DNA of 47,612 bases from Actinomycetes bacterium (GTDB lineage Bacteria; Actinomycetota; Acidimicrobiia; Acidimicrobiales; GCA-2861595), in assembly GCA_023264975.1 (NCBI GenBank), contig JAHFUS010000024.1, positions 1 to 47,612 on the forward strand, written 5' to 3'. Below are positions 17,534 through 32,352 of the stretch, piece by piece. The notes under the pieces are model-generated. The model ran no database searches. It saw only the letters and a list, made by a program, of their open reading frames with translations, and was not told where the DNA came from. The position numbers and the translations under genes were made by a program. Numbering within the stretch: the stretch's first letter is position 1; each line of letters opens with the position of its first letter.

Positions 17534-17578
17534 CGCTCAGCGCACCGTCCCGTGTGTTACCACTACCGTGCGGGTCCC

Positions 17579-18763: not shown

Positions 18764-18766
18764 CCG

Positions 18767-18796
18767 TTACCCGACCACGTAGAGTGGTGATACAGT
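18767..18796 (+). promoter_or_regulatory. Candidate promoter for the PglF-like gene
   Basis: TTACCC at 18767-18772 and TACAGT at 18791-18796 are separated by 18 nt. The -10 is good and is preceded by TGA (extended type); the -35 matches consensus at only three positions. Transcription would begin near 18803 and give a leader of about 140 nt that contains the 8-bp tandem repeats and a hairpin. Confidence 0.3.
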
Positions 18797-18834
18797 CGGA
18801 GGAGCGTTCGACCGATTACGAACAGAGGTCAGTC

Positions 18835-18882
18835 GATCGGACGTCCGGACGATCGGACGATCGGACGATCGGACGATCGGAG
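18835..18882 (+). repeat. Six tandem copies of the 8-mer GATCGGAC
   Basis: The array reads GATCGGAC, GTCCGGAC, then GATCGGAC three times, then GATCGGAG, so six units in 48 bp with one internal and one terminal variant. It lies in the leader between the upstream GT4 stop and the preferred start of the PglF-like gene. An 8-bp unit is not a multiple of three. Gain or loss of a unit would therefore shift any reading frame that begins at ATG 18760. Confidence 0.9.
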
Positions 18883-18908
18883 CACCGTGCGCTGGCGTAC
18901 CGGGTTAC

Positions 18909-18925
18909 GGTCTCCTCGGGAGACC
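18909..18925 (+). other. Perfect hairpin in the leader of the PglF-like gene
   Basis: GGTCTCC and GGAGACC pair in a 7-bp stem with a 3-nt TCG loop, ending 5 nt before the GGAGGG ribosome binding site at 18931. No T-run follows, so it is unlikely to be a terminator. It could affect ribosome access to the start. Confidence 0.5.
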
Positions 18926-18942
18926 TGGGCGGAGGGTTTCCT

Positions 18943-20847
18943 TTGACAAGACGGGGAGGTGACGTCGAGGTGCCTCGTTCGACGAGGTTCGCGCAGCGCG
19001 CGTCGCGCCTGCGCAGCGACGTGATCCTGGGCGTCTTCGATGCGCTGCTCCTCACCGCCGCCTTCGCCGCCGTGCTGGTCCTTCGCTTCGACGGCAAGGT
19101 CCCGTCGCACCACTGGAACGCCTTTTGGAGCTTCGTCCCCCTCGGCGTGGGCCTGAGCCTGGCCAGCAACTGGGTATGGGGACTCTACGGCCAGCTGTGG
19201 CGCCATGCGAGCATCCAGGAGGCCCGACGCCTGCTCATGGCCGGCGCCACCACCACGTCCGTGCTCGTGTTCCTCGAGGTCGGCGTCCGCCGCAGCGTGC
19301 CCTACTCGGTGGTCACCCTCGGCGTAGGCCTGGGCATCTTCCTCATGGGCGCCCTGCGCTTCCAGTCCCGCCTGTTCTCCTTCCAGCGCCGCTCCGCCGA
19401 CCAGGACGGGCTCAAGGTCGTCGTGATCGGTGCAGGCGACGCCGGCGCCGCCCTGGTGCGGGAGATGCTGCGCAGCCCCCGGGCCGGGCTCGTGCCCGTC
19501 GCCGTGCTCGACGAGGACCCCCGCCGTCACGGCCGCTCGTTCATGGGCCTGCGCATCGAGGGCGGCATCGCCGACCTGCCCCGGGTCGCCCGACGCCACG
19601 CCGCCCACCAGGCCGTGCTGGCCATGAGCTCGATCGATCAGCCGCTCGTGCGCCAGGCGGCGGCCGCCGCCGAGACGGCCGGCGTGGCGCTGCGCATCGT
19701 GCCCGGTATGTCGTCCACGGTAGGGACCCGGGTCTCCATCAGCGATGTGCGCGACCTGCGCATCGAGGACCTTCTCGGGCGCAAGCAGGTCGTCACCGAC
19801 CTCGACGGCGTCCGCCGTCTGCTCGAGGGCAAGCGCGTCCTCGTCACCGGCGCCGGCGGCTCGATCGGCTCCGAGATCTCCCGCCAGGTCGCGGCCTGCG
19901 ACCCGGCGTCGCTCGTGCTGGTCGACCACGACGAGACCCACCTCTACGACGCGGCCAACTCGGTGCACCACACCAACGTGCAGGTGCTGGCCGACATCCG
20001 CGACCGCGAGCTGATGCTCCACGTGTTCGCCACCCACCGGCCCGAGGTCGTGTTCCACGCCGCCGCCCACAAGCATGTGCCGCTACTCGAGGACCACCCG
20101 TGCGAGGCTGCCCTCACCAACGTGGTGGGCACGGCCAACGTGCTCGAGGCGGCCGAGCTGGTGCATGTCGAGCGCCTCGTGTTCATCTCAACGGACAAGG
20201 CCGTCGTGCCGTCGAGCGTGATGGGCGCCTCCAAGCGCCTGGGCGAGCAGCTCGTGCTCGGCCAGGCGCCCGAGGGCACCCGCTACTGCGCCGTGCGCTT
20301 CGGCAACGTGCTGGGTAGCCGGGGCAGCGTGGTTCCCACATTCATGCGCCAGATCGCCGCCGGTGGCCCGGTCACCGTCACCGACCCGGCCATGACCCGC
20401 TTCTTCATGAGCATCGAAGAGGCGGTGCAATTGGTGCTCCAGTCGGCCGCGCTGGCCGAGGGCGGCGAGCTGTTCATGCTCGACATGGGCGAGTCCGTGC
20501 GTATCCTCGACCTGGCCGAGCGCATGATCCGCCTCTCCGGTCGCGAGGTGGGCAGGGACATCGAGATCAAGGTCACCGGCGTGCGTCCGGGCGAGAAGCT
20601 GGTCGAGGAGCTGCGGGACTGCGAGGAGCAGACCTTCGCAACGATCCACCCCTCGATCATGCGGGTGCAGCCGCTGCCCACGCCGAGCGCCCTCCTGCGC
20701 ATGGGCATGGTGCAACTGGAGGCGTTCGCCTCGGGCCGGCGTCCCGAGGAGGTCCGCACCCTCCTGTTCGCGCTGGCCGAGGCACGGGTACCGCAGGACA
20801 CGCAGGAGCAGATCGCCACGGCGGAGGCAAAGGCCTTGCGCCCGTGA
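18943..20847 (+). CDS. Membrane-bound nucleotide-sugar 4,6-dehydratase (PglF/CapD family)
   Basis: A 634-residue protein with the CapD/PglF layout. Residues 25-155 hold four hydrophobic helices, and a first Rossmann domain starts near 160 (VVVIGAGDAGAALV). The catalytic extended-SDR domain starts near 296 (VLVTGAGGSIGSEI). FISTDKAV near 415 and VMGASKR near 425 supply the catalytic STDK and the Met that replaces Tyr in this family. It converts UDP-GlcNAc-type substrates to the 4-keto-6-deoxy sugar. TTG 18943 is favoured by GGAGGG 6 nt upstream. ATG 18760, overlapping the previous stop, is open too but would translate through the 8-bp repeats. The next gene is a DegT aminotransferase, the usual next enzyme. 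Confidence 0.9.
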   Translation: MTRRGGDVEVPRSTRFAQRASRLRSDVILGVFDALLLTAAFAAVLVLRFDGKVPSHHWNAFWSFVPLGVGLSLASNWVWGLYGQLWRHASIQEARRLLMAGATTTSVLVFLEVGVRRSVPYSVVTLGVGLGIFLMGALRFQSRLFSFQRRSADQDGLKVVVIGAGDAGAALVREMLRSPRAGLVPVAVLDEDPRRHGRSFMGLRIEGGIADLPRVARRHAAHQAVLAMSSIDQPLVRQAAAAAETAGVALRIVPGMSSTVGTRVSISDVRDLRIEDLLGRKQVVTDLDGVRRLLEGKRVLVTGAGGSIGSEISRQVAACDPASLVLVDHDETHLYDAANSVHHTNVQVLADIRDRELMLHVFATHRPEVVFHAAAHKHVPLLEDHPCEAALTNVVGTANVLEAAELVHVERLVFISTDKAVVPSSVMGASKRLGEQLVLGQAPEGTRYCAVRFGNVLGSRGSVVPTFMRQIAAGGPVTVTDPAMTRFFMSIEEAVQLVLQSAALAEGGELFMLDMGESVRILDLAERMIRLSGREVGRDIEIKVTGVRPGEKLVEELRDCEEQTFATIHPSIMRVQPLPTPSALLRMGMVQLEAFASGRRPEEVRTLLFALAEARVPQDTQEQIATAEAKALRP

Positions 20848-20863
20848 CAGAGCCCACCGGCTC

Positions 20864-22039
20864 GTGAGTTCCCCGCCCGCGGTCCTGGGCGGGCCGAAAG
20901 CGTTCCCGGACGGTCTGCCCCTCGTCCGGCCGTACGTCCCCGGGATCCCCGCCCTCACCTCCCGCCTGCAGTCGATCCTCGACAGCGGCCATCTCACCAA
21001 CGGGCCCACCGTGGCCGCGTTGGAGGCGCGCGTGGCCGACCTGGTCGGCGTGGCGCACGCCGTCGGCGTGGCCAGCTGCACGTCGGGGCTCATGCTCGTG
21101 CTCCAGGCCCTCGGTGCCACCGGCCGGGTGGTGCTGCCCAGCTTCACCTTCTCAGCCAGCGCCCACGCCGTGGTGTGGGCGGGCGGCTCGCCCGACTTCG
21201 CCGAGGTGGACCCGGCCACGTGCACCCTCGACCCGGCCGACGCGGCGCCGCTGGTGGAGGGCGCGTCGGCCATGACGGCGACCCACGTCTACGGCACGCC
21301 GTGCCGCACCGACGAGCTGCAGGCGCTGGCGGACGGCACCGGCATTCCGCTCGTCTACGACGCCGCCCACGCCCTCGGCAGCAAGCGGGCAGGCGTGCCG
21401 ATCGGCGGGTTCGGCGCGGCCGAGGTGTTCAGCCTCAGCCCGACGAAGGTCGTGGTGGCGGGCGAGGGCGGGCTGGTCACCACCGACGACGCCGGCTTGG
21501 CCGAAGCGTGCCGGATGGGGCGTGACTACGGCAACCCGGGCGACTACGACTGCCGCTTCCCGGGCCTGAACGCACGCATGTCCGAGCTGCATGCAGCGGT
21601 GGCTCTGGCATCGCTCGACGGACTCGACGAGCGCATCGCCCACCGCGGCGCGCTGGTGGCCCGCTTCGGCGCCGGTGTAGCCGGCGTGGCCGGCCTTTCC
21701 CTGGCCGCCGTGGCGGAGGGCGACACGTCGACCTACAAGGACCTCACGGTCATCGTCGACCCCGAGGGGTTCGGCCTCGGTGCCGCGCAGCTGGCCCGGG
21801 CCCTGAAGGCGGAGGGCATCGACTCCCGCCGCTACTACCACCCGCCCATCCACATGCAGAAGGCCTATGCGTCCCGCTGGCCGGAGCGGCGGCCCCTCCC
21901 CGTCACCGAGGAGCTGTCCACAAGGGTCCTCAGCGTCCCCCTGTGGTCGCACATGACCGATGACCAGATCAGTGGCGTGGCCGACGCCGTCGCCCGCATC
22001 CACGCCCACGCAGCGGCCGTCAGCCTTGCCCTCACCTGA
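20864..22039 (+). CDS. DegT/DnrJ/EryC1/StrS sugar aminotransferase (PglE-like)
   Basis: A 391-residue PLP-dependent aminotransferase. The N-terminal GHLTNGPTVAALEARVADL and SCTSGLMLVLQAL are typical. VYDAAHALG (Asp166, His169) binds the PLP ring, and Lys195 in SLSPTKVVVAGEGG forms the internal aldimine. RYYHPPIHMQ near the C-terminus is also conserved. It should aminate the 4-keto sugar made by the upstream dehydratase, with glutamate as donor. GTG 20864 is 17 nt after the dehydratase stop; the Shine-Dalgarno is weak, so coupling is likely. The PglE role is inferred from the PglF neighbour, since DegT enzymes vary in sugar and position. Confidence 0.9.
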   Translation: MSSPPAVLGGPKAFPDGLPLVRPYVPGIPALTSRLQSILDSGHLTNGPTVAALEARVADLVGVAHAVGVASCTSGLMLVLQALGATGRVVLPSFTFSASAHAVVWAGGSPDFAEVDPATCTLDPADAAPLVEGASAMTATHVYGTPCRTDELQALADGTGIPLVYDAAHALGSKRAGVPIGGFGAAEVFSLSPTKVVVAGEGGLVTTDDAGLAEACRMGRDYGNPGDYDCRFPGLNARMSELHAAVALASLDGLDERIAHRGALVARFGAGVAGVAGLSLAAVAEGDTSTYKDLTVIVDPEGFGLGAAQLARALKAEGIDSRRYYHPPIHMQKAYASRWPERRPLPVTEELSTRVLSVPLWSHMTDDQISGVADAVARIHAHAAAVSLALT

Positions 22040-22203
22040 CCGGGCGCACGGGCGGAACGGGGCCCGGGCGCTACGATTGGAGGAGCAACGGGCTCATATC
22101 CGACGTGTCCGATGCCGAACCTGCTTGTGGAGGATGTTGCAGGTGACCAGCGCCGGGATGAGCCGCCCGAGTTTCGCCGCAGTCGCCCAAGCCGGAGACG
22201 TCG
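22040..22203 (+). promoter_or_regulatory. Leader region of the Wzc-like gene with a hairpin and small overlapping ORFs
   Basis: TACGAT at 22072-22077 is a possible -10, giving a leader of about 120 nt. ACCTGC (22119-22124) and GCAGGT (22139-22144) can pair in a 6-bp stem. Two short frames with GGAGG nearby (GTG 22127, 34 residues; ATG 22134, 27 residues) run over the start of the kinase gene and could be coupling leaders, but nothing proves translation. The Wzc-like ATG at 22204 has GGAG 5-6 nt upstream. Confidence 0.3.
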
Positions 22204-23997
22204 ATGGAGCCAATTGAGTACGCCAGGCTGATCCGCCGCCGATGGCGGATCCTCGCCGCCTGCTGCCTGGTGTCGGCCGTCGTGGTTTGGGTTCTCACCC
22301 CGTCGTCCCCCGCCAAGACGGCGCCGCAGTTCGTGGGCGAGCACACCCTCATCCGCGACGGCGAGACCGCGGCCACACCGGCCGCCCTCGCCACGGTGGC
22401 GCTGTTCGTGCGCACCGGCGAGGTTCCGGCCCGCGTGGCCAAGCGGATCGGCTTCGACCGCGACCCGCAGCTCCTGGCCCGAAGCGTCGAGGCCGAGCCC
22501 GACGAGCAGATCGGCACCCTCACCATCAAGGCCACCGCCGGCGGGCGCCAAGCCGCAAGTGACCTGGCCAACGCCTTCGCCGAAGAGACGCTGGCCGTCC
22601 TCGGGGAGAAGGCCCAGGCGACGCTCGACAAGGTGAACACCGATCTGACCGCCCGCGTCACCAGGCGGCGGGCCACCATCGACGACCTGGAGCGCCAGAG
22701 CGCAGCGGCGCGGGCAGCCGGCCGGTCGCCCGAACTGATCGATGCGCAGCGCGACGCCGAGCTCCGGCTCTACGGCACCGACCTCGAGCTTCAGCAGAAG
22801 CAGGCCGACGTTCCCCCGCCGACCTCGGGCTTCACCACCCTCGAGGCGTCCACGCCGGAACTGGCCAACCCCCGCAGCGCCGGCCTCGGTGTGCCGGCCG
22901 GCCGGCCGGGCCGTACCGCCGCCGCCGCCCTGCTCGGGCTCATGCTCGGCGCCGTCGTGGCCCTGGTGGTCGAGCGGGTCGACCCCCGCATCACGCTGCG
23001 GGCGGGCGCGGAGCGGGCCTTCAAGCTGCCCGTCATCGCCGAGGTCCCGTTCTCGCGGGGCCGCCGGTTCGACGTGCTCACCGCCACCAACCCGTCGTCG
23101 GCCGTGGCCGAGGCCTACAGGGCGGTGCGCTCAGCCCTCCTGCTCATCCCCGGCAACGTGCTCGGCCGGTTAGGCGACGTCCCCGCCGAGCCCGCCGCCC
23201 CCACCACCAGCGTGGTGGCGGTGCCGAGCATCCTCGGCACCGGTGGCAACGGCCACCACGCCATGCAGTCCAACGCCGTCGGCCGGCGGGGGCCGGGCGA
23301 ACCGCAGGTCGTCCTGGTCACGTCGGCCGCGCCGGCAGAGGGCAAGACGGCCACGGCGGCCAACCTGGCGGCCAGCTTCGCCGAGACGGGCCGCTCCGTC
23401 CTGGTGCTCAGCTGCGACTTCCGGCGCCCCTCGATCCACGAGCACCTCGGCGTGCGCCAGGCGTGGGGCCTCACCGATGTGCTGCAAGGCGGCCGGGACG
23501 CGCCCAAGCTGGCCGATGTGGTGAAGGACTCGATCATCCCGGGTGTACGCATCGCAACCAACGGCTCCCCCCTCGACAGCTACGGCGAGGTCGCCGCACG
23601 CGGCCGCGGGCTGGTGGGCGAGGCACGGGCGCTGGCCGACATCGTGGTGATCGACACCGCCCCGATCCTCGTCGCCCACGAGGCCACCGAACTCATCCCG
23701 GCGGCCGACACGGTGATCGTGGTGTGCCGCAGCGGGCAGACCTCCAAGGAGGACGCCGGCCGCACGCGCGAGATGCTCACCCGCCTGAGGGCATCGGTGG
23801 CCGGCGTGGTGCTGGTGGGCGCGCCGGAGAGCGACACCGGCTACTCGACCTACTACTACGAGAACCAGTCCCGTCAGGACCGGCGGAGCGTCGGCGCGTG
23901 GCTTCTCGGCCGCCGGCCGCCGCCGCCGCCTCCGCCGGTGGAGACCCGGCCCGACGACGTCCTCCCCAAGCCCGACAGGAAGCGGGCCGTCACCTGA
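22204..23997 (+). CDS. Wzc-like polysaccharide co-polymerase with BY-kinase domain
   Basis: A 597-residue protein. Residues 16-31 and about 238-259 are membrane helices flanking a Wzz-type region (22204-22980) with a predicted coiled coil at about 140-200. The cytoplasmic ATPase has Walker A SAAPAEGKTA near 378, Walker A' VLVLSCDFRRPS near 400 and Walker B VVIDTAPIL near 480. The C-terminal tyrosine cluster TGYSTYYYENQ near 545-555 fits autophosphorylation. The family sets polymer length and activates polymerase-dependent export. A Pro-rich tail with PPPPPPP follows. It lies 20 nt before the polytopic protein at 24018, a likely functional partner. Confidence 0.87.
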   Translation: MEPIEYARLIRRRWRILAACCLVSAVVVWVLTPSSPAKTAPQFVGEHTLIRDGETAATPAALATVALFVRTGEVPARVAKRIGFDRDPQLLARSVEAEPDEQIGTLTIKATAGGRQAASDLANAFAEETLAVLGEKAQATLDKVNTDLTARVTRRRATIDDLERQSAAARAAGRSPELIDAQRDAELRLYGTDLELQQKQADVPPPTSGFTTLEASTPELANPRSAGLGVPAGRPGRTAAAALLGLMLGAVVALVVERVDPRITLRAGAERAFKLPVIAEVPFSRGRRFDVLTATNPSSAVAEAYRAVRSALLLIPGNVLGRLGDVPAEPAAPTTSVVAVPSILGTGGNGHHAMQSNAVGRRGPGEPQVVLVTSAAPAEGKTATAANLAASFAETGRSVLVLSCDFRRPSIHEHLGVRQAWGLTDVLQGGRDAPKLADVVKDSIIPGVRIATNGSPLDSYGEVAARGRGLVGEARALADIVVIDTAPILVAHEATELIPAADTVIVVCRSGQTSKEDAGRTREMLTRLRASVAGVVLVGAPESDTGYSTYYYENQSRQDRRSVGAWLLGRRPPPPPPPVETRPDDVLPKPDRKRAVT

Positions 23998-24017
23998 ACG
24001 GGGCGCACCGCACGAGC

Positions 24018-25430
24018 GTGACGTCCCGGACCAGCACCCTCCGGCCGTACGGGGTCACCGTCCCCGCCATCGGCGCCGTCGCCCTCTACATGGCCTTCCT
24101 GGCGTGGGCCGTCGAGCACAGTGCGTACGACACGTGGGGGGGCGTGCTGGTGGGCACCGCCCTGCTCCTCGGCAGCCTGCCCGTCGTGCTGCACCTGGCC
24201 AAACGGGAGCCGGACCCCCGGGTCGCCAGGCTCCTACCCTGGGCCCTTGGCCTGAAGCTCGGCGCGTCGCTCATCCGCCTGCTCATCACCTTCGCCGTCT
24301 ACGATGGCGTGGCCGACGCCAACACGTACCACACCGCCGGCCACCTGCTGGCGCCCATGTACCGGCGGGGCGACTTCTCGGCCGACATCGGGCCTCTCGT
24401 CGGCACCGGGTTCATGAAGGTGTTCACCGGGTTGGTGTACGCCGTCATCGGGTCGACCCGCCTGGGCGGCTTCGTGGTGTTCTCCTGGATCGGCTTCTGG
24501 GGCCTCTACCTGTTCTACCGGGCCTTCTGCCTGGCATGCCCCGAGGGCGACCGCTGGCGATACGCCTGCCTCGTGTTCCTGCTCCCTTCGTTGCTCTTCT
24601 GGCCGTCGAGCATCGGCAAGGAGGCGTGGATGACTCTCTCCCTCGGCGTGGCCACCTACGGCGCGGCCAAGATCCTCACCCGCACGCGGGGCGGCTTCGT
24701 CACCCTCGCCCTCGGCGTGGCCGGCACCGTGGCGGTGCGGCCCCACGTGGGCGTCATCCTCATGGTGAGCCTGCTGCCCGCCTACCTCTTCCGCCGGCCG
24801 CCGGCCGGGGGCTCCATCCTCGGGCCCGTGGCCAAGATCGGCGGCATCCTGCTGCTGGGCGTCATCCTGGCCGTCGTCGTCGGCGAGGCGTCGGAGCTGT
24901 TCGGCGTGAAGGACCACTTCGACGCCGAGGCCGTGTCGGCCCTGCGCCAGCGGGCCAACGCCCAGACGTCGGTGGCCGGGTCGTCGTTCGGCAACGGCAC
25001 CACCGACTTCTCGCCATCGGCCTTCCCGGGCGCGCTCATGTCGGTGCTGTTCCGGCCCTTCCCGTGGGAGGCGGGCAACCCGCTGGCGTTCATCGCCTCA
25101 CTCGAGGGCACGTTCCTGCTCGGGATGATGGTGGTCTGTCGCGGGCGGATCGTCGGCGCGCTCCGTTCGGTCCTGCACACGCCGTTCGTGGTGCTCTGCC
25201 TCGTGTACTCCGTGCTGTTCGTCTATGGCTTCTCGAGCTTTGCCAACTTCGGCGTGCTGACGAGGCAGCGGGTGCAGGTGTTCCCGTTCGCGCTCGTTCT
25301 CCTGGCGCTGCCCACCTACCGGCCGGCGCAGGGCGGGTGGCGCGATTTGTTCCTCCGTCCGTACGACGAGGTGCGACCAGCCGACCGGACCCGGGGCGAG
25401 GACGACGAACCGGCCTGGCTCCCGCTGTAG
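24018..25430 (+). CDS. Polytopic membrane protein, candidate polysaccharide polymerase
   Basis: A 470-residue protein with about ten hydrophobic segments. It has no name I can assign firmly. A loop with DGVADANTYH (residues 96-105), the FWPSSIGKEAW segment (194-204) and RPH (241-243) are the kind of polar motifs in membrane loops seen in EpsG/Wzy-like polymerases and GT-C enzymes. Start GTG 24018, 20 nt after the Wzc-like gene; the larger open frame reads into that gene in another phase. Context supports a polymerase: Wzc-type proteins work with Wzy, and no other Wzy candidate is seen. A GT-C sugar transferase is the main alternative. The C-terminus is cytosolic and acidic (EDDEP). Confidence 0.6.
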   Translation: MTSRTSTLRPYGVTVPAIGAVALYMAFLAWAVEHSAYDTWGGVLVGTALLLGSLPVVLHLAKREPDPRVARLLPWALGLKLGASLIRLLITFAVYDGVADANTYHTAGHLLAPMYRRGDFSADIGPLVGTGFMKVFTGLVYAVIGSTRLGGFVVFSWIGFWGLYLFYRAFCLACPEGDRWRYACLVFLLPSLLFWPSSIGKEAWMTLSLGVATYGAAKILTRTRGGFVTLALGVAGTVAVRPHVGVILMVSLLPAYLFRRPPAGGSILGPVAKIGGILLLGVILAVVVGEASELFGVKDHFDAEAVSALRQRANAQTSVAGSSFGNGTTDFSPSAFPGALMSVLFRPFPWEAGNPLAFIASLEGTFLLGMMVVCRGRIVGALRSVLHTPFVVLCLVYSVLFVYGFSSFANFGVLTRQRVQVFPFALVLLALPTYRPAQGGWRDLFLRPYDEVRPADRTRGEDDEPAWLPL

Positions 25431-25463: not shown

Positions 25464-25511
25464 TGTGGCGGAATCAGAGCTTTTGCCACACTCAGTACAA
25501 GTCGGTAAGGT
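25464..25511 (+). promoter_or_regulatory. Promoter with overlapping inverted repeat before the first Tat protein
   Basis: TTGCCA (25483-25488) and TAAGGT (25506-25511) are spaced exactly 17 nt, a good housekeeping-sigma promoter. TGTGGC (25464-25469) and GCCACA (25485-25490) form an inverted repeat that overlaps the -35, as an operator would. The 12-mer GCCACACTCAGT also occurs, with 10 of 12 matches, ahead of the second Tat gene. The leader to GTG 25590 is about 70 nt and includes two ATGCATGC-like palindromes. Confidence 0.5.
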
Positions 25512-25589
25512 GGACCGGGCAGGGTGCATGCACGGCCTGATGCCAGCACGGCCGGATGCATGCGCGGCGACGAACCGGGGAGGCGAGGG

Positions 25590-26111
25590 GTGGACGCACA
25601 AGGCGCGGCAGGACTGTCCAGGCGTGACGTGCTCAAGCGGTCGGCGGTCGTGGGTGGCCTGGTCTGGATCGCTCCCACGATCCTCGCCGGGCCGGCCGGC
25701 GCCAGCGTCGTCACCTGCCCGGCCAACCGCCGGTATGCCATCAAGCACGGCTCGCCGAACACGGGCTGCGAGGTGCCGGGCACGAACCCCGGCGGAACCG
25801 GCAACTGCGCCGCCCAGGCTGGGTTCACCGAATTCCAGAGCGGCTGCTGCCTCGAGCCGACCCTGGTGAGGTTCGTCGCGAGCGCCGACGGAACGACCCA
25901 CACCTACACGTTGGCGGCGGGTGTCGGCTTCTCGCAGGGCTTCGCGAAATGTGGGAACGACTGCCATCGGCACGAGGAACCGCACAACGAGTTCGTCATC
26001 GAGGACCGGGACTCGGTCACCGGCATCACGACGGTCGTCATGACGTGCTCGAGCCTGTCGCACTCCGAGCTCGTCGTGTGCCTCGACGGGTCCAACCTGC
26101 CGGTCTGCTGA
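25590..26111 (+). CDS. Tat-exported cysteine-rich protein 1, unknown function
   Basis: A 173-residue secreted protein of no family I recognise. GTG 25590 is fixed by GGGGAGG 6 nt upstream; the frame is open to 25524 but without such a site. Residues 10-38 form a twin-arginine signal (SRRDVLKRSAVVGGLVW, then AGPAGA) with cleavage near residue 38. The mature part has ten Cys (including CC and a C-terminal Cys), an even number suited to disulfides, and a His/Glu cluster CHRHEEPH. Its signal is almost the same as that of the protein at 27445. Its stop lies inside the HprK-like gene at 26078, which suggests coupled translation and a shared job. Confidence 0.8.
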   Translation: MDAQGAAGLSRRDVLKRSAVVGGLVWIAPTILAGPAGASVVTCPANRRYAIKHGSPNTGCEVPGTNPGGTGNCAAQAGFTEFQSGCCLEPTLVRFVASADGTTHTYTLAAGVGFSQGFAKCGNDCHRHEEPHNEFVIEDRDSVTGITTVVMTCSSLSHSELVVCLDGSNLPVC

Positions 26112-26965
26112 TAGTCGGACGTCCTGCCGCTCGTCGCATCGGGCCGTACGCGGTACTAGGGCAGCACTTCGCCGTCACGGTCGACGACACGGCGATCGCC
26201 GGCTACCTGGAACAGGCCTTGGCGTCACTGGCCACGTCGTCGCCGCCCACGGTTCGATGGTCGGTCGTCGACCGGGCCGGAGCCGACGCAGACCACCGAT
26301 TCGCAGTCTTCCGGGACGGCAGCCTGCTCTTCGGCTGTGCCGACAGGAACCACGTGGTGCCGCTGCTGCTGTGGTGGGTCAACCGGACCGTCTGCTTCGA
26401 AACCGGCCACCGTGTGATGGTGCACGCCGCAGTGGCCGCCGTCGACGGCAGAGCCGTCGTGCTCCCCGCTCCGCAGGAGTCGGGCAAGACCACGCTGGTA
26501 GCGGCGCTGGTGCAAGACGGTCTCGGCTACCTCACCGACGAGGCCGCCGCCTTCGACCCGAAAACCGGGATGGTGGACGCCTATCCCAAGTGGCTTTCCC
26601 TGAAGCCCGGGTCCTGGGCCCTGTTCCCGCACCTGCGGCCCGTCCTGCCGCCGGAGCTGGCCGGCTTCGCCGAGGACCAGTGGCACGTCGTGCCGGATGC
26701 GGTCCGGCCCGGCGCGGTGGTGCCCTCGGCGGAACCGGCATTCGTCATCGCACCCCGGTACCGACCGGGCCAGTCGACGTCGATGGAGCCCATGGGCCGC
26801 GCCGAGTCGCTCTCGATCCTGGCCGAGGAGGCGTTCAACCTCGGGCGCTTCGGGAGGGCGGGCTTCCAGGCGTTGGCCGGCGTCGTCGGTCGCAGCGAGT
26901 GCTGGCGGCTCACGACAGGTGATCTGGGCGAAGCGGTGGCCGCCGTGCGGGCTGTCACCGGCTGA
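26078..26965 (+). CDS. HPr-kinase-like protein A
   Basis: A roughly 295-residue relative of the C-terminal HPr kinase/phosphorylase domain. MVHAAVAAVDGRAVVLPA leads into the P-loop PQESGKTT near 131-138, then GYLTDEAAAFD, the usual acidic segment. LKPGSWALFPHL and MGRAESLSILAEEAFNLGRFG match the equivalent parts of protein B at 28292. The first P-loop Gly is Ala, but Gly-Lys-Thr-Thr is intact. No ATG exists near the gene start. GTG 26078 is the nearest in-frame start and overlaps the Tat gene by 34 nt. The N-terminal domain of true HprK (serine-phosphorylation sensor) is missing. Kinase action on a peptide or protein is inferred. Confidence 0.72.
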   Translation: MPRRVQPAGLLIVGRPAARRIGPYAVLGQHFAVTVDDTAIAGYLEQALASLATSSPPTVRWSVVDRAGADADHRFAVFRDGSLLFGCADRNHVVPLLLWWVNRTVCFETGHRVMVHAAVAAVDGRAVVLPAPQESGKTTLVAALVQDGLGYLTDEAAAFDPKTGMVDAYPKWLSLKPGSWALFPHLRPVLPPELAGFAEDQWHVVPDAVRPGAVVPSAEPAFVIAPRYRPGQSTSMEPMGRAESLSILAEEAFNLGRFGRAGFQALAGVVGRSECWRLTTGDLGEAVAAVRAVTG

Positions 26966-26994
26966 GGGACCCGGGTAGCCGCTCCCCGATCGTC

Positions 26995-27009
26995 TACGTT
27001 CGCGTTGTG
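26995..27009 (+). promoter_or_regulatory. Candidate leaderless promoter of the Thr-rich protein gene
   Basis: TACGTT at 26995-27000 lies 6 nt before GTG 27007 and there is no Shine-Dalgarno. This is the same spacing as the sites before 46256 and 3559. Transcription starting at the GTG would give a leaderless mRNA. Confidence 0.4.
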
Positions 27010-27414
27010 CGACAAGGCCGGTGGTTCATCTGGCTGCTGTTCGTGCTCGCCGCCGTGCTCGCCGCCGACAGCCTGCACCTCGCAGGCGGAACCGATCCCC
27101 CCGCTCCTAGGACCGGCGTGCTGGGCGAGGTGCTCACCAGGGACACGGTGGCGCCGGCGCTCACGACGGTCCCTGCCATGGTCGTCACCACGACCATCGC
27201 CGCCGCGACCACCACTGCGGCACCCCTCGTAACCGTGCCGGTGACGGTCGCCAAGCCGCCTACCACCGTGACGACGAGGGTCGCTACGACGACGACCAAA
27301 ACCGCCCAGGAGGGCACCACCACGTCGACAACCACGACCGCCCCGGAGGGCACCACCACGTCGACGTGGCCGCCCTACAACCCGCCGGAGACGTTCATGC
27401 CGCCGCAGACCTAG
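27007..27414 (+). CDS. Small secreted or membrane-anchored Thr-rich protein
   Basis: A 135-residue protein. Residues 5-20 (WFIWLLFVLAAVLAAD) form a signal peptide or signal anchor after a short basic start. The rest is low-complexity and rich in Thr, Val and Pro, with runs such as TTTIAAATTTAAP and two EGTTTST units, ending in PPYNPPETFMPPQT. Such Thr-rich stalks are often O-glycosylated or span the cell wall. It lies between HprK-like A and the second Tat gene, convergent with the latter (30-nt gap). Function unknown; involvement in the adjoining system is only positional. Confidence 0.65.
   Translation: MRQGRWFIWLLFVLAAVLAADSLHLAGGTDPPAPRTGVLGEVLTRDTVAPALTTVPAMVVTTTIAAATTTAAPLVTVPVTVAKPPTTVTTRVATTTTKTAQEGTTTSTTTTAPEGTTTSTWPPYNPPETFMPPQT
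27309..27365 (+). repeat. 21-bp direct repeat in the Thr-rich gene
   Basis: The 21-bp block that begins GGAGGGCACC and ends ACGTCGAC occurs at 27309-27329 and 27345-27365, a period of 36 bp (12 codons). It encodes the EGTTTST unit twice. It is a recent internal duplication that can expand or contract in frame. Confidence 0.85.
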
Positions 27415-27444
27415 CGTCCGCGGGACCGACAGCGTCTCAGGCGG

Positions 27445-28173
27445 TCAGGCGCAGGTGGTGACCGTGCAGTTGATCTTCGAGGCGTTCTTCACGCACAACT
27501 CCATCTCGATGAAGTTCAGCGTGGTGCCGATACCGTCGGTCGTCATGTAGACGCCGCTGATGGGCGTGGTGCAGGCACACGGCTTGTTGTTGCTGCTGCC
27601 ACAGCGGGTGCCCGTGGGACGGGATCCGCCGGGCTGGTTGCCGGTGCAGCGGGTGCTGGCCGGGCCAGTGCCGCCCGTGTACACCTGGAACAGGGCGAGG
27701 TCGTCGGTGGTTGCCGGATCGGTGAAGGTGGAAGCAGTGGTGTAGATCTCGGCGTTGGTGCTGGAGACCCACCTGAACACCTTGCCGAACCCCTCGTTGC
27801 AGCGGGCGACGTAGCAGTCGTTCGTCGACTTGATGGCGAACTTGTACCCCGTGACGCCGTCGCCGAAGGCGATCGAGGCGCTGTTGGCGCTGCTGTCGAC
27901 ATCGTCGCACTTGCCGAGCAGGCCCTGGGAGATGAGGCAGTCGATCGAGTAGCGGTGCACGACACCAAAGATGTTGGGCTGCAGGCATTGGTTCTGGCAC
28001 GTCTGGGAGTCGCCCGGAGCGAACTTGGCGTAGATCACCTCGCCGCCGTCGCAGGTGCAGCAGCCGGTCGACTGGCCCCACGCGGTGCCGGTCGAGAGCA
28101 TCGGGGACGCCCAAACCACACCACCGACGACTGCAGAGCGCTTCAACAACTCCCGACGGGAAAGTCCGTCCAT
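27445..28173 (-). CDS. Tat-exported cysteine-rich protein 2, unknown function
   Basis: A 242-residue secreted protein. ATG 28173 is preceded by GGAGG with a 7-nt spacer. Residues 5-33 are a Tat signal (SRRELLKRSAVVGGVVW, then STGTAWG). It nearly duplicates the signal at 25590, while the mature parts differ. The mature part holds 16 Cys (GCCTC, CQNQC, CYVARC, CAC and others, the last next to the C-terminus) and many Thr/Ser/Gly. It looks like a disulfide-stabilised extracellular protein. The gene follows the PqqD/nucleotidyltransferase/HprK gene train on the same strand after a 118-nt gap. I infer that it is one substrate or product of that system. Confidence 0.8.
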   Translation of the reverse strand: MDGLSRRELLKRSAVVGGVVWASPMLSTGTAWGQSTGCCTCDGGEVIYAKFAPGDSQTCQNQCLQPNIFGVVHRYSIDCLISQGLLGKCDDVDSSANSASIAFGDGVTGYKFAIKSTNDCYVARCNEGFGKVFRWVSSTNAEIYTTASTFTDPATTDDLALFQVYTGGTGPASTRCTGNQPGGSRPTGTRCGSSNNKPCACTTPISGVYMTTDGIGTTLNFIEMELCVKNASKINCTVTTCA

Positions 28174-28204
28174 CTGTCCGCCTCCAGCCGTCCCGACCAC
28201 CACT

Positions 28205-28221
28205 CATTGTGGCGCTCACAA
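28205..28221 (-). promoter_or_regulatory. Palindrome upstream of Tat protein 2
   Basis: TTGTG-GCGCT-CACAA at 28207-28221 is an inverted repeat about 34 nt before the start. On the gene strand the sequence continues GCCACAATGAGT, which matches 10 of 12 positions of GCCACACTCAGT before Tat protein 1. A minus-strand TATTCT lies just upstream and could be a -10. A common regulator is possible but not shown. Confidence 0.35.
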
Positions 28222-28291
28222 CGAGAATACACCACTACGAGGGCTGGAATACCAGAATCGTGACGCTAAGTGGTCGGAATGGGACAATGCG

Positions 28292-29224
28292 TCAGCATTG
28301 GGATGTCCCGGTCGCCAGCGGCCGCAGGAGGTGCGGAGCCGTACTCACGCCGTCGAGGAGCAGGCGGTGGCAGGAGGTCCGGCTGACGGCCCGCGCCAGG
28401 CCGTCGAACCCCGGGCCACCGAGCCGGCGCAGGTTGAACGTGAGCGACACCAGGCGCTCGAGCGCCTCCGCCCGGCCCATGGGGACGAGCGCCGTCGTCA
28501 CACCCGCCACGACCTCGGGGAACACGAACGCCACCGGCCGCGCCGGCGCCGGCGGACCGGACCCCCCGCCCAGGGTGCCCGGCAAAAGCAGCCGCAGGTC
28601 CGTGACGAGCGCAGGGACGCCATCGGGCCAGCGGCGGTCGCTGCCCGGGAACAGGTCCCACGAGCCCTCCTCCAAGGCGAGCGGCCGGGGATAGGGGCGC
28701 ACGACGTCGCGACGGAGGTCCAGATCGGCGACCTCGTCGGACAGGTAGTCCCACCCCGCCAGCGCGAGAGCGGTCACGAGGGTCGTCTTCCCCGCCCCCG
28801 ACCGCCCCGGCAGGATGACGGCCCGCCCGTCGAGGCTGGCGACGGCGGCGTGGACGTGGACGTCCGGCGAGGGCGCGTTCAGTGCGATGGCGTTCAGCAG
28901 CCACACGAGTGATCGGGCCAACCCGGCCACCGACCCGGCCCAGAGGGAACGTTCGCCGTCCTGGTACGCGGCCCACCTACCGTCCACCTCCACCAGGTCG
29001 AGGGCGATGCCGGGCTCCGTAGCGGTGGGGAAGGCGGCCACGAACGCCTCGAGGAACCGACCGAGGGAGGCGTCCTGGCAGCGGATCCTCACCCGGGCGT
29101 CGAGCAGGCGGACCGGCCCGACGGCGGTGGCGTAGCGCACCGCGTCGAGCACCCGCCGCTCGATCCGCACCGCAGGCCCGCCGTCGGGCGCCGGGGGCAG
29201 GTCGGCGGGCGCCCGGACGGTCAT
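28292..29224 (-). CDS. HPr-kinase-like protein B with intact P-loop
   Basis: A 310-residue protein. VHVHAAVASLDGRAVILP leads to a canonical Walker A GRSGAGKT at 140-147, then DYLSDEVADLD. ALEEGSWDLFPG and MGRAEALERLVSLTFNLRRLG correspond to protein A. The N-terminal 120 residues align with A in pattern (VGPVRLLDARVRI...FLEAFVAAF). ATG 29224 lies in an ATGA overlap with the stop of protein C, so B and C are co-translated. In phosphorylated lasso-peptide loci, related kinases modify the precursor; here no lasso precursor is seen. I infer ATP-dependent phosphorylation of a partner, perhaps a Tat protein before export. Confidence 0.75.
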   Translation of the reverse strand: MTVRAPADLPPAPDGGPAVRIERRVLDAVRYATAVGPVRLLDARVRIRCQDASLGRFLEAFVAAFPTATEPGIALDLVEVDGRWAAYQDGERSLWAGSVAGLARSLVWLLNAIALNAPSPDVHVHAAVASLDGRAVILPGRSGAGKTTLVTALALAGWDYLSDEVADLDLRRDVVRPYPRPLALEEGSWDLFPGSDRRWPDGVPALVTDLRLLLPGTLGGGSGPPAPARPVAFVFPEVVAGVTTALVPMGRAEALERLVSLTFNLRRLGGPGFDGLARAVSRTSCHRLLLDGVSTAPHLLRPLATGTSQC

Positions 29225-29997
29225 CGAGGAGGAGAGCGGTCCAGCACGGCGTCGACCATCGCCAGCGTGTAGCCGGGGAACATCGACGTCGCCCGCACGG
29301 TGGTGAAGAAGCGGGCCACAGTGGTCACGAGGTCCTGGTCGGGGGCCGTGATGCCGTCGACGATGTCGAGGATGGCGGCCCGGGTGGCGGCGGCGCGCGA
29401 GACGGGCCCCCACTCGCCGCCGTTGTCGATGAAGACCCAGCGCTCGACCGGGTAGCGCCCGACGGCGACGGTGGGCTCGGCTCGGCGCCGGAGGACGCCG
29501 GCGGTTGCGTCGGCCAGGGCGCCCGCATCGGCCTCCACGAAGTCGGGCACCACCAGCTGGGCCGACGCGAAGTCGACGAGGGCGCGGGGCGTGTCCACCG
29601 CCACGTAGCCGGCGGCCCGGAGTTGGCGGTCGACGATGCGCAGGTCGTCCTTGAACCGGGACGGCAGCAGCACGGCGCGCCCGTCCCGCACATAGGGGAG
29701 CGACGTCACCCACACCAGGCCTGGCAGCGGCGGCAGGTGGGCGCCGAGGTGATCGCTGAGCGAGCGGAGAATGCGGTCGGGGTCGAACGACCTGGCCGCC
29801 ACGCAGCCCCCCCAGAACAGCAGGTGGGCGTCGTCGCGCCTGGGACTGAACTGGACGGAGAAGTTGCGCGGCGCCTGCGGGTCGTCCACCACCCGGTCGC
29901 GGAAGGCACGCGCCAGCGCCAGCGCGGCGGCTTCGGTGTTGGTCCTGATCCCCGCCCGGACGGTTCCGAGCTCCACGGCGCACGAGTCCACCCACAC
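29221..29997 (-). CDS. HPr-kinase-like protein C with degenerate P-loop
   Basis: A 258-residue protein. VRDGRAVLLP aligns with the DGRAVILP of protein B, but the following P-loop is replaced by SRFKDDLRIV (residues 113-122): no Gly-Lys-Thr remains. The flanking pattern (ELGTVRAGIRTNTEAAALALARAF at the N-terminus, AAGYVAVDTPRALVDF after the loop) still fits the fold. It is probably a catalytically dead paralogue acting as scaffold or regulator of B, whose start it overlaps by 4 nt. GTG 29997 is used; GTG 29991 is equally possible. The gene is intact and its reading frame is well kept, so it is unlikely to be a pseudogene. Confidence 0.6.
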   Translation of the reverse strand: MWVDSCAVELGTVRAGIRTNTEAAALALARAFRDRVVDDPQAPRNFSVQFSPRRDDAHLLFWGGCVAARSFDPDRILRSLSDHLGAHLPPLPGLVWVTSLPYVRDGRAVLLPSRFKDDLRIVDRQLRAAGYVAVDTPRALVDFASAQLVVPDFVEADAGALADATAGVLRRRAEPTVAVGRYPVERWVFIDNGGEWGPVSRAAATRAAILDIVDGITAPDQDLVTTVARFFTTVRATSMFPGYTLAMVDAVLDRSPPR

Positions 29998-30018
29998 GAG
30001 GTGTTCGACGGTCTGGCC

Positions 30019-30492
30019 TCAGGGGGCGGGCGGGTTGGCGAGGTAGTCGGGACGCCAGAGGCCCTCGGCCTCGTCCGAGCCGGCGGTCGCGTCCTGCGAC
30101 CGTGCTGCGCCCACCAGCTGGTGGGCGGGCGGCTCCGCGCCGTCGAGCAGGGCGGCGTCTTCGAGGGAGCGGACCAGGGCGTCCAGGTCGGCCCGCACGG
30201 TGGTGGCCGGGATCTCGAAGGCGTCGGCCAGGTCCCCGACCAGCTCCTCGACGGTGACCTCGCCGTCGAGGACGCTCCAGATCACCGAGGCCACGGGATC
30301 CAGCAGGTGCAGCCGGTCGGTGCGAGGATCGAGCAGCAGCAGCTCGCCGTCCACGTCCGTCGTCCGCAGGCCGCCGGCCGGCCGGGGGACGAAGGCGCCG
30401 TCCACCGGCTCCCGCTCCACCGGCCCGTGCACGTGCCCGCCGGGGCCGTGGTCGTGGTCGTCGTGGTGATCCTGGGCCACGGAATCTCCCAT
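30019..30492 (-). CDS. PqqD-like peptide chaperone with His-rich N-terminus
   Basis: A 157-residue protein from ATG 30492. Residues 28-118 form a PqqD-like winged-helix domain: strand GELLLLDPRTDRLHLLDP, then VASVIWSVLDG, then the helical VEELVGDLADAFEIPATTVRADLDALVRSL. PqqD domains bind leader peptides and present them to modifying enzymes. The first 25 residues are unusual: six His and several Asp in residues 8-22 (DHHDDHDHGPGGHVH), a likely metal-binding tail. A 38-residue C-terminal tail ends WRPDYLANPPAP. The gene is 13 nt after the second PqqD gene and 21 nt before HprK-like C. Confidence 0.72.
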   Translation of the reverse strand: MGDSVAQDHHDDHDHGPGGHVHGPVEREPVDGAFVPRPAGGLRTTDVDGELLLLDPRTDRLHLLDPVASVIWSVLDGEVTVEELVGDLADAFEIPATTVRADLDALVRSLEDAALLDGAEPPAHQLVGAARSQDATAGSDEAEGLWRPDYLANPPAP

Positions 30493-30505
30493 CGGGGTGG
30501 ACAGG

Positions 30506-30808
30506 CTACGTCGAGCCATCTGTGTGTTCGGACACCAGCCCCAGTTCCAGGAGCCGGACGACCAGAGCGTCCACATCGGCACGGACCGCCGCCAGGGACA
30601 CCCCGAACACGTCCGCCAGGTCGGCAGCCAGCTCACCGGTCGTGGTCACGCCGTCGAACGAGCCCCAGATGAGCGAGCCGATCCGGTCCAGGCGGACCAG
30701 CCGGCCGGTCGCCGGGTCCCACACCACCCGCTCGCCGTCGAGCTCGGCGTCCCCGAGCCCTGGCTTCACCTTCCAGACCGGTCCTGAGCTGTCGGGCGGT
30801 TCACGCAC
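30506..30808 (-). CDS. PqqD-like peptide chaperone
   Basis: A 100-residue PqqD-like protein. GERVVWDPATGRLVRLDRIGS, LIWGSFDG and ELAADLADVFGVSLAAVRADVDALVVRLLELGL follow the same layout as the other two copies. GTG 30808 is fixed by GGGAG with a 6-nt spacer and overlaps the end of the nucleotidyltransferase gene by 8 nt, so the frame extension to 30976 is rejected. Close to the typical 90-residue length of PqqD. Role: leader recognition for a peptide or protein modified by its neighbours, inferred from family and context. Confidence 0.75.
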   Translation of the reverse strand: MREPPDSSGPVWKVKPGLGDAELDGERVVWDPATGRLVRLDRIGSLIWGSFDGVTTTGELAADLADVFGVSLAAVRADVDALVVRLLELGLVSEHTDGST

Positions 30809-31949
30809 GGCGATCTCCCGGTCGGATGGAGCGGTGGCGGCGGGCCACCTCGCGCAGGCCCGTGCCCCATTCGGCCGGCCGCCCCGCCTGCCTCCGGGCC
30901 GCCACGTAGGCGCCGTCGGGTGCGAGCAGGGCGCGAAGGTACCGCGCCCGGTCGATGCCCCGCACCCCGAGCGCACCGGAGAGCAGCTCGAGGGTGTTCG
31001 AACCGCCCTGGGCCCGGTAGGCCCGCAGAGAGAGGCGCTCCCACCGGCTCGCCACGGCGGCGTCCGCGAACGCGGCGGCGGCCTCCCCGACCCGGGCCCC
31101 CAACGAGGACCTGCACGCGGCGACGGCTGCGGCGACGACGGCCGCTCCCCTGCCGGGCGGCAGGAGGGCGCTCAGCCGCTCGGGCCGGAGCCGGTGCGAC
31201 GTCGAGATGCGCACCACATCGCGCAGCGCCACCAGGCGCGGGTGGTCGTCGCCCAGCATGGCGTTGAGGCACGCATGCGCGAAGCGGCCCTCGGCGTCGA
31301 GTGCCTCCAGCGTGGTGCCGCCCAGCTCGAACGTCGCCGTCGACGCCCACAACGTCGCCAGGTCGATACGGAGCCCGAACGACCCGAGCGCGAGCGTGCG
31401 GTGGAGATCGACCTCGGGACGGCGGGGATGAGCGAGCGGGACCTCCTTGCCGAAGCGACGGTCGAATCCACGACTGCGCTCCGGAAGGTCGCGCACATAG
31501 CCGATGGAGGCCAGCGCGGCGAGGGCGCCGGACATGGCCTGGCTGCGCACGAGCAGGTCGAGGTCGGCGTAGTGGCGAAGGGCCGGGTCCGGCTCGTCGA
31601 GGCGCGCCACCGCCGGCCCCTTCAGGACGACGAACGCCACGCCGGCCCGTCCGAGGCAGTCGGCGACCACGAGCAGCGCACGCTCCAGGAGCAGCGTCCC
31701 CCGGATGAACTGGGCCGCCGCATCCTCGGCGTCGTCGGCCTGCGCCCGGGTGGCCGGCACGACCCCGTCGGCCACCGCCCGGTCGAGCAGCCCGCTCATG
31801 CGCTCTTTCGACACGGCGGCCGAGAGCGATCGCCACTGACGGTCCTCCAGGGCCCGGAGCGGGCTCCTGTCCCCGGTGCCCGGGAGGCCGTGGGCGGCGA
31901 CGGCGAGCAGGGCAGTGCGCACGTCGGCCTCCAGCCCGGGCGCAGGCAT
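30801..31949 (-). CDS. Nucleotidyltransferase-fold protein (NTP_transf_5 type)
   Basis: A 382-residue protein. VAFVVLKGPAVARL (Lys110) and RHYADLDLLV (Asp129 and Asp131) form the NTP_transf_5 core: a Lys plus a DXD-type pair in the pol-beta-like fold. PEVDLHRTL supplies a later Asp. The C-terminal half is helical and ends in a basic tail. The family is uncharacterised biochemically but is repeatedly found with PqqD- and HprK-like genes in RiPP and exopolysaccharide loci. It could nucleotidylate a peptide or protein. ATG 31949 is chosen (the frame extension to 32369 is Arg/Gly-rich noise). The gene lies between two PqqD genes: 14 nt after one, overlapping the other. Confidence 0.75.
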   Translation of the reverse strand: MPAPGLEADVRTALLAVAAHGLPGTGDRSPLRALEDRQWRSLSAAVSKERMSGLLDRAVADGVVPATRAQADDAEDAAAQFIRGTLLLERALLVVADCLGRAGVAFVVLKGPAVARLDEPDPALRHYADLDLLVRSQAMSGALAALASIGYVRDLPERSRGFDRRFGKEVPLAHPRRPEVDLHRTLALGSFGLRIDLATLWASTATFELGGTTLEALDAEGRFAHACLNAMLGDDHPRLVALRDVVRISTSHRLRPERLSALLPPGRGAAVVAAAVAACRSSLGARVGEAAAAFADAAVASRWERLSLRAYRAQGGSNTLELLSGALGVRGIDRARYLRALLAPDGAYVAARRQAGRPAEWGTGLREVARRHRSIRPGDRRA

Positions 31950-31963
31950 CGGAGGGGCCCGCC

Positions 31964-32239
31964 TCACACGGGGACCACCAGGCCGGCCGCCACCATGGCG
32001 GCCACGAACTCGCCCACGTCGGCCCGTATGGCGTCGGCCGACTGGTCGAAGACGGCGGCCAGGTCCTCCACCAGCTCGTCGAGCGACACGTCGTCGTCGA
32101 ACGCCTCCCACACCAGGGCAGGTATGTCGCGGAGCTCCACGACGGCGGCCCCCTCGCCTGGGCTCACGAGGACCCGCCCGCTCGTGCGATGCCACAGTGC
32201 ATCCTTCGAGCGTCGGTATCTCCCTGTCGTCACCGCCAC
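31964..32239 (-). CDS. PqqD-like peptide chaperone
   Basis: A 91-residue PqqD-size protein: GRVLVSPGEGAAVVELRDIPA, LVWEAFDDD and DELVEDLAAVFDQSADAIRADVGEFVAAMVAAGL. It is the first certain gene of the minus-strand train that ends with the Tat protein 2 gene. GTG 32239 has GGGA close upstream; a 40-codon frame (32230-32352) overlaps its start by 10 nt. Three separate PqqD copies in one operon is unusual and suggests that more than one client or modification step is served. Confidence 0.72.
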   Translation of the reverse strand: MAVTTGRYRRSKDALWHRTSGRVLVSPGEGAAVVELRDIPALVWEAFDDDVSLDELVEDLAAVFDQSADAIRADVGEFVAAMVAAGLVVPV

Positions 32240-32352
32240 GTCCCTGCAGCGCGTCGACCCGGCACGTGCGGCCCCGGGCTCCTGCCGGCCGGGTGCACCG
32301 GCATGGCCACGCTACCTGCGCCGCCGGACCGCTCCGTCGTCGATCCCACCAT
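32230..32352 (-). CDS. Possible small ORF overlapping the first PqqD gene
   Basis: ATG 32352 opens a 40-codon frame (VGSTTERSGGAGSV... ending AAGTWR) whose stop overlaps the PqqD start by 10 nt, a layout seen when a precursor peptide precedes its chaperone. There is no clear Shine-Dalgarno, and the same DNA could simply be the promoter region: TAGCGT on the minus strand is a candidate -10. The frame is in phase with a long shadow frame of the desaturase, so chance is likely. Confidence 0.2.
   Translation of the reverse strand: MVGSTTERSGGAGSVAMPVHPAGRSPGPHVPGRRAAGTWR

Follow-up and report, generated by a model that had tools for sequence, protein, structure and literature searches.

Introduction

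The HPr-rel-A systems named by NCBI combine an HprK-type kinase (NCBIfam TIGR04352, HprK_rel_A), a PqqD-domain protein (TIGR04353, PqqD_rel_X) and a nucleotidyltransferase family protein, and their function is unknown. In the literature searched, which mostly excluded subscription journals, we found neither a function for the HPr-rel-A kinases and PqqD proteins nor a paper linking them with a partner exported by the twin-arginine translocation (Tat) pathway. PqqD domains bind leader peptides, and the Tat pathway exports proteins in the folded state. Here, we analyse a module of HprK-like, PqqD, nucleotidyltransferase and Tat genes in the 47,612-nt contig JAHFUS010000024.1 (assembly GCA_023264975.1, Actinomycetes bacterium, order Acidimicrobiales), the whole of which is referred to as the window. 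The initial annotation of this DNA had proposed a candidate new system. It is not wholly new but a divergent HPr-rel-A-like system of Actinomycetota, in which a Tat protein is the probable client, and the new element appears to be this Tat partner of the module. Its recurrence as a neighbour across two phyla suggests an undescribed chemical tagging of folded proteins prior to export. A consistent Tat partner provides a concrete substrate candidate for the orphan HPr-rel-A kinases and makes the question of their role testable. If the idea is true, a protein modification would be made ahead of Tat export and a new route for attaching proteins to polysaccharide may exist.

Other described systems share parts of the gene set. 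In lasso peptide tailoring (PadeK, ThcoK, PsmK/PsmN), an HprK-type kinase, a PqqD protein (B1) and a nucleotidyltransferase-like protein serve one ribosomal substrate, whereas the likely substrate in the window is a folded Tat protein. The HprK-type kinases PadeK and ThcoK phosphorylate the C-terminal serine of lasso precursors, and the nucleotidyltransferase-like PsmN, together with PsmK, puts hexoses on phosphoserine in vivo, as seen for pseudomycoidin (PMC9266682, PMC8498205). The SynChlorMet cassette (TIGR04248/TIGR04249) also contains a pair of PqqD-like and HprK-like proteins, but the corresponding profile matches in the window are weak and the module has no radical S-adenosylmethionine (SAM) enzyme. 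XrtA/PEP-CTERM loci resemble the window in their exopolysaccharide genes (a TIGR03108-like amidotransferase and a TIGR03018-like autokinase), and the copy of the amidotransferase in the related locus L267 passes TIGR03108. Unlike in these loci, no exosortase was found in the window, and the Tat clients have no PEP-CTERM family match.

Gene content of the module

Genes were called on codon-position GC and then assigned by family searches (Pfam, NCBIfam). The module occupies the window from 25.5 to 32.2 kb, after an exopolysaccharide locus, and consists of the following genes:

Tat1, 25524..26111, plus strand: small, predicted Tat-exported Cys-rich protein with the signal SRRDVLKRSAVVGGLVWIAP, probable client; TIGR01409, 19.1 bits
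K1, 26078..26965, plus strand: HprK-type kinase with H, P-loop K and DE intact; TIGR04352, 129 bits
Tat2, 27445..28173, minus strand: predicted Tat-exported Cys-rich protein with the signal SRRELLKRSAVVGGVVWASP, probable client
K2, 28292..29224, minus strand: HprK-type kinase, catalytic residues intact; TIGR04352, 98 bits
K3, 29221..29997, minus strand: degenerate HprK paralogue lacking both P-loop and catalytic His; hhalign 96.7%
D1, 30019..30480, minus strand: PqqD-domain protein with His-rich N-terminus; PF05402, 53.6 bits
D2, 30506..30808, minus strand: PqqD-domain protein; PF05402, 49.9 bits
NT, 30801..31949, minus strand: NTP_transf_5 nucleotidyltransferase-fold protein; PF14907, 76.1 bits
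D3, 31964..32239, minus strand: PqqD-domain protein; PF05402, 44.5 bits

All genes named in the initial annotation, i.e., three for PqqD proteins, three for HprK-like proteins, one for an NTP_transf_5 protein and two for Tat proteins, were thus recovered by family searches or profile alignment. One of the three HprK-like proteins, K3, is degenerate. In 20 kinases including K1 and K2, His125 and Lys146 (K2 numbering) are invariant and Asp163/Glu164 are conserved in >90%. K3 aligns to the kinase profile and gave no family match in the Pfam or NCBIfam searches; since both the P-loop lysine and the catalytic histidine are absent, it is predicted to be a catalytically dead pseudo-kinase. A structure prediction of K3 alone had a predicted local distance difference test score of 37.5 and was not used. 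The three PqqD proteins score over the PF05402 cut-off of 23.4 bits, as does NT over that of PF14907 (31.2 bits). Across 11 homologues of NT, the KG, R, DxD and D-x-H signatures are invariant, as are D129, D131 and D181. In sequence searches of the PDB, the kinase profile matched HprK over the P-loop region only and with weak E-values, and nothing useful was returned for NT.

Several of the genes overlap. K1 (GTG start at 26078) and Tat1 (stop at 26111) share 34 nt, K2 (ATG start) shares 4 nt with the end of K3, and D2, with its GTG at about 30808, shares 8 nt with the end of NT; an alternative D2 start is at 30769. The Tat1 start is uncertain (GTG 25524, ATG 25560 or GTG 25590). On the minus strand, the order of transcription is D3, NT, D2, D1, K3, K2 and then Tat2. 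A second species of the genus (locus L035) has the same arrangement, namely Wzz, membrane protein, Tat1-K1, Tat2, K2-K3-D1-D2-NT-D3, plus an additional PqqD-NT pair ahead of Tat1.

The HPr-rel families named in the initial annotation correspond to TIGR04352 and TIGR04353. The window and the HPr-rel-A loci share the core order PqqD-kinase-NTP_transf_5, with PqqD, kinase and nucleotidyltransferase genes adjacent in the window, and both lie in an exopolysaccharide context; in the Pseudomonadota, such loci can likewise be preceded by a Tat-signal gene. This gene beside the module is a feature found here and, as far as we know, not part of the NCBI definition. The window differs in having three PqqD proteins, a pseudo-kinase, two Tat proteins and a Tat signal of another type (W-x-A-P). 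Moreover, K1 and K2 stay under the TIGR04352 cut-off of 200 bits, and the PqqD proteins, with 19.4, 18.2 and 15.9 bits, under the TIGR04353 cut-off of 35 bits, which is why the locus is not filed as an HPr-rel-A system. It nevertheless agrees with these systems in its genes, their context and the Tat partner, and most likely works like one.

Tat genes accompany the module in two phyla

To identify Tat signals, we used regular expressions and a profile of our own. A DNA motif for RRxxLxxxAxxGGx[hydrophobic]WxxP was derived from the two Tat signals of the window. In its strict form, it had seven matches in 118 genomes of the order, all seven inside kinase (HprK/PqqD) loci: the window and the sister species have two each, and G003, G062 and G072 a single one. 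The reversed control pattern had zero matches in the same genomes. With randomly placed matches, the chance that all five outside the window fall into kinase loci would be about 2e-13, although two of the five are sister-species orthologues. Among 40 kinase loci (629 kb), 15 carry a total of 17 convincing Tat genes with a W-x-P signal, most of which have a kinase, PqqD or NT gene at a distance of 0.1-1.1 kb. Control regions from these genomes (20 regions, 380 kb) contained no convincing Tat gene; these counts were sorted by eye, matches of the loose regular expression to wrong-frame open reading frames being discarded.

The profile (A1; 36 positions) was built from 19 Tat signals and yielded 37 order-wide matches at E<=1e-7, all of them within the 28 kinase-carrying genomes. 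This test is partly circular, as 13 of the matched genomes had supplied training signals, but four had not (p 3e-4). A phylum-wide sample of 198 genomes is largely free of this circularity. Besides the window's own genome, the signal occurred in seven of these, a strong kinase match in eight and both in six (p 2.6e-9). The Tat gene neighbours the kinase within about 0.5 kb in G243, G169, G144 and G222, and a weaker Tat match lies 1.5 kb from the kinase in G232. A single scan of an 85,000-species collection with the strict motif returned five matches, of which three were judged to be chance and two are from Acidimicrobiia; at the latter two, Tat proteins are present and no kinase lies within the stretch examined. 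The Acidimicrobiia contigs L102 and L104 carry the signal motif, L104 in the form of two tandem Tat genes, and both genomes have PqqD loci.

Linkage extends to the Pseudomonadota. Two NCBI-annotated HPr-rel-A loci are present in the plasmid collection (Sphingomonas parapaucimobilis and Vibrio alfacsensis), and in both the 'hypothetical protein' directly upstream carries a Tat signal (TSRRMLMLGAVG... and FSRRRFIRSAAISS...). The Sphingomonas protein has the accession WP_347091308.1. Of 299 genomes sampled from the phylum of Extensimonas, 50 have a TIGR04352 match above the cut-off. Among 34 Pseudomonadota loci of this sample, at least 18 have a Tat-signal gene directly ahead of PqqD-kinase-NT. 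Tat signals occur at 1.3 per 10 kb near the operon versus 0.2 elsewhere (p 2e-6), the controls being few (six regions and the outlying parts of the loci). Many of the Pseudomonadota clients end in SCWxSF or CFASLQMPRG, with C-[WF]-x-S near the end as the common motif. The genome of L103 gave no kinase match and served only as the centre for sampling its phylum.

The check suggested in the initial annotation, for co-occurrence of Tat proteins with HprK/PqqD genes in relatives, thus gave a strongly positive outcome in the order, in the phylum and in the Pseudomonadota. In the kinase tree, Tat neighbours are found for 43 of 94 kinases and are spread over all main clades, and the partnership is thus old or recurrent. 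Taxonomic statements rest on kinship labels and a few named records.

Candidate client proteins

Conservation of the signal region continues past the twin arginine (RRxxLK..A..GG.VWxAPxI), and against the NCBI Tat profile TIGR01409 (cut-off 16.7 bits) Tat1 scores above and Tat2, at 15.7 bits, slightly below. Among 57 proteins with the Acidimicrobiia-type signal, 17 match this profile (E<=0.01), and the mature parts are highly diverse (mean column identity 9%). Most partners are 130-250 amino acids long, and some have extracellular domains: choice-of-anchor P occurs in three of the 57, choice-of-anchor J in one, and one is a LAXTG small protein. None of the 57 matched a PEP-CTERM family. The partners had been described as Tat-exported and Cys-rich. 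The Tat signal is indeed their common feature, but the number of cysteines ranges from 0 to 18 and Cys-richness is not general.

Fusions connect the components directly. PqqD-kinase fusions are numerous in the loci of the order and occur in both domain orders. In G072 (L040) and G118 (L177), a PqqD domain is followed directly by a Tat signal in one open frame, and in G001 (L159) the Tat signal precedes the PqqD domain. The fusion protein of L040 ends in a LAFTG sorting motif and a membrane tail. As would fit clients scattered over the genome, many signal-bearing proteins have no kinase or PqqD gene anywhere near them, their genomes carrying the system at another site.

Several smaller observations concern possible clients. 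Tat proteins with LAFTG/LPRTG sorting motifs are encoded in L040 (3408-4073), L041 (4348-4743) and L159 (6758-7552), two of them with a PqqD domain. In L160 (6933-7545), an 87-residue Tat peptide with GGNQTW/GGNQTF repeats adjoins a PqqD gene and looks like a precursor peptide. Short peptides of 50-143 residues with Tat-like RRKFLAACGRFAVVTPPAVTLLLS-type signals lie beside kinase loci in L288 (8321-8566 and about 9525), L285 (8443-8655) and L287 (8396-8554) and possibly form a third client class.

Proposed mechanism and alternatives

We propose that the module modifies proteins in the cytosol and is coupled to Tat export and exopolysaccharide synthesis, a reading that we regard as evenly balanced between right and wrong. 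The PqqD proteins, perhaps also the pseudo-kinase K3, would recognize the Tat precursor, plausibly via the conserved signal region, in which the W-x-A-P stretch could be a natural docking site for PqqD. PqqD would bring the already folded precursor to the HprK-type kinase, which would phosphorylate a serine or threonine of the client (serine, by lasso precedent), and the NTP_transf_5 protein would put a sugar or nucleotide on the client phosphate. Modification of a folded precursor is possible because Tat exports folded proteins. The order of phosphorylation and then glycosylation or nucleotidylation is proposed by analogy with PadeK/ThcoK and PsmN. The modified protein would exit by Tat and stay outside, possibly joined to the polysaccharide of the neighbouring genes; the association with polysaccharide loci and the choice-of-anchor domains suggest that the tag anchors the protein there. 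The genes present, their intact active-site signatures, the repeated linkage and co-occurrence across genomes, and the fusions of PqqD with kinase or Tat signal are observed; recognition of the signal by PqqD, the modified residue, the chemistry and the fate of the product are what we infer.

Several points weigh against this proposal. The observation is one of linkage between Tat genes and the module, from which chemistry and client status are deduced, and the Tat genes could be linked merely as genes for polysaccharide matrix proteins. About half of the kinase loci have no Tat gene within 2.5 kb, and clients found by their signal alone mostly have no machinery beside them. The C-terminal serine motif of the Pseudomonadota is not obvious in Tat1 and Tat2. 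Finally, the chemistry ascribed to NTP_transf_5 proteins comes from one in vivo study, that of PsmN, which left room for a host glycosyltransferase acting after nucleotidylation.

The first of these points leads to the alternative that survives best, although we consider it doubtful: the Tat protein may be a co-regulated extracellular matrix protein, the target of kinase, PqqD and NT being elsewhere, e.g., an overlooked small peptide or the machinery for the polysaccharide. It would account for the extracellular domains of Tat clients (e.g., choice-of-anchor P and J) and for the many genomes in which the module lies beside genes for Wzz, an O-antigen-polymerase-like protein and sugar metabolism, sometimes without a nearby Tat gene. 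It does not sit well with a Tat gene that usually is the immediate neighbour and in this genus overlaps the kinase gene, with PqqD-Tat fusions in some genomes, with a signal conserved far past the twin arginine, or with the near absence of this signal class from genomes without the kinase.

Proteins of the TorD/DmsD type are Tat proofreading chaperones. PqqD may act likewise and retain a precursor whose folding, disulphide formation or modification is still unfinished, with kinase and NT regulating release. The conserved signal region, the PqqD-Tat fusions and the Cys-rich clients are compatible with such a role, but several clients have no cysteine and proofreading alone needs neither a conserved kinase nor a nucleotidyltransferase; we judge this quite unlikely. 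Very unlikely is a pathway for ribosomally synthesized and post-translationally modified peptides (RiPPs) with the Tat signal as leader and the sometimes very short mature part as modified peptide, for which the leader-binding PqqD fold, the 64-87-residue Tat peptides beside PqqD genes (L050, L160) and the presence of kinase, PqqD and NT in lasso clusters can be cited, but not the typical partner, a Tat protein of more usual size and sometimes with extracellular domains, nor the module itself, in which family searches found no B2 protease, lasso cyclase, YcaO or radical SAM gene.

The lasso-peptide reading was dropped because no B2 protease, cyclase or precursor was seen in the module. The absence of RiPP enzymes stated in the initial annotation holds for the module in the case of B2, cyclase and radical SAM enzyme; upstream, however, lies an AsnB-type amidotransferase (15593-17533), which is nearest to TIGR03108 (529 bits versus 181 bits for lasso cyclase).

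In its most far-reaching form, the tagging proposal would apply to surface proteins with a Tat signal class of their own in at least two phyla: PqqD-guided HprK and NTP_transf_5 proteins would phosphorylate and then glycosylate or nucleotidylate them in the cytosol, Tat would export them folded, and the phospho-sugar would be joined to exopolysaccharide from the same locus, making this a Tat-dependent counterpart of exosortase/sortase anchoring with clients scattered in the genome. We consider it unlikely that all of these elements apply together.

Genomic context

Positions 1-25430 of the window form an exopolysaccharide locus with genes for glycosyltransferases, a polyprenyl glycosylphosphotransferase, ABC export, an amidotransferase, a sugar dehydratase, an aminotransferase, a Wzz/tyrosine autokinase and a multi-pass membrane protein. 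Its end adjoins the module:

Exopolysaccharide locus end, 15593..25430, no single strand: conserved genomic context, outside the core module

Here, the AsnB-type amidotransferase is accompanied by a glycosyltransferase, sugar dehydratase and aminotransferase, then the Wzz/tyrosine autokinase (22204-23997) and the membrane protein (24018-25430). Other families of the order repeatedly have kinase, PqqD and NT placed after Wzz and this membrane protein (L042, L045, L046, L054), often with PqqD and kinase fused.

No exosortase was found in the window or its contig, in G001 or in most kinase-bearing relatives. The single match in the window's genome is a homologue (PF09721) on another contig (G000:C130:111888-112697), absent from the sister species. 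An exosortase reading was dropped, as the enzyme does not accompany the locus.

The window's own genome has a second, separate kinase-PqqD-NT set (L050, G000:C54, 8037-10796) with a 64-residue Tat peptide (GLSRRDALKRGAVVASAAWIAPAVMALPVSSASADSPSG...) between PqqD and NT. Lasso-like clusters of the same phylum (L226, 7345-12194; L228, 3-5576) encode a kinase and PqqD homologous to those of the window, L226 also an NT. Between K1 and Tat2, positions 27007-27414 hold a Thr/Pro-rich, membrane-anchored open reading frame of uncertain coding status without family match. Further downstream, at 42379-44145, a gene for a subtilisin-like protease is followed by several repeats.

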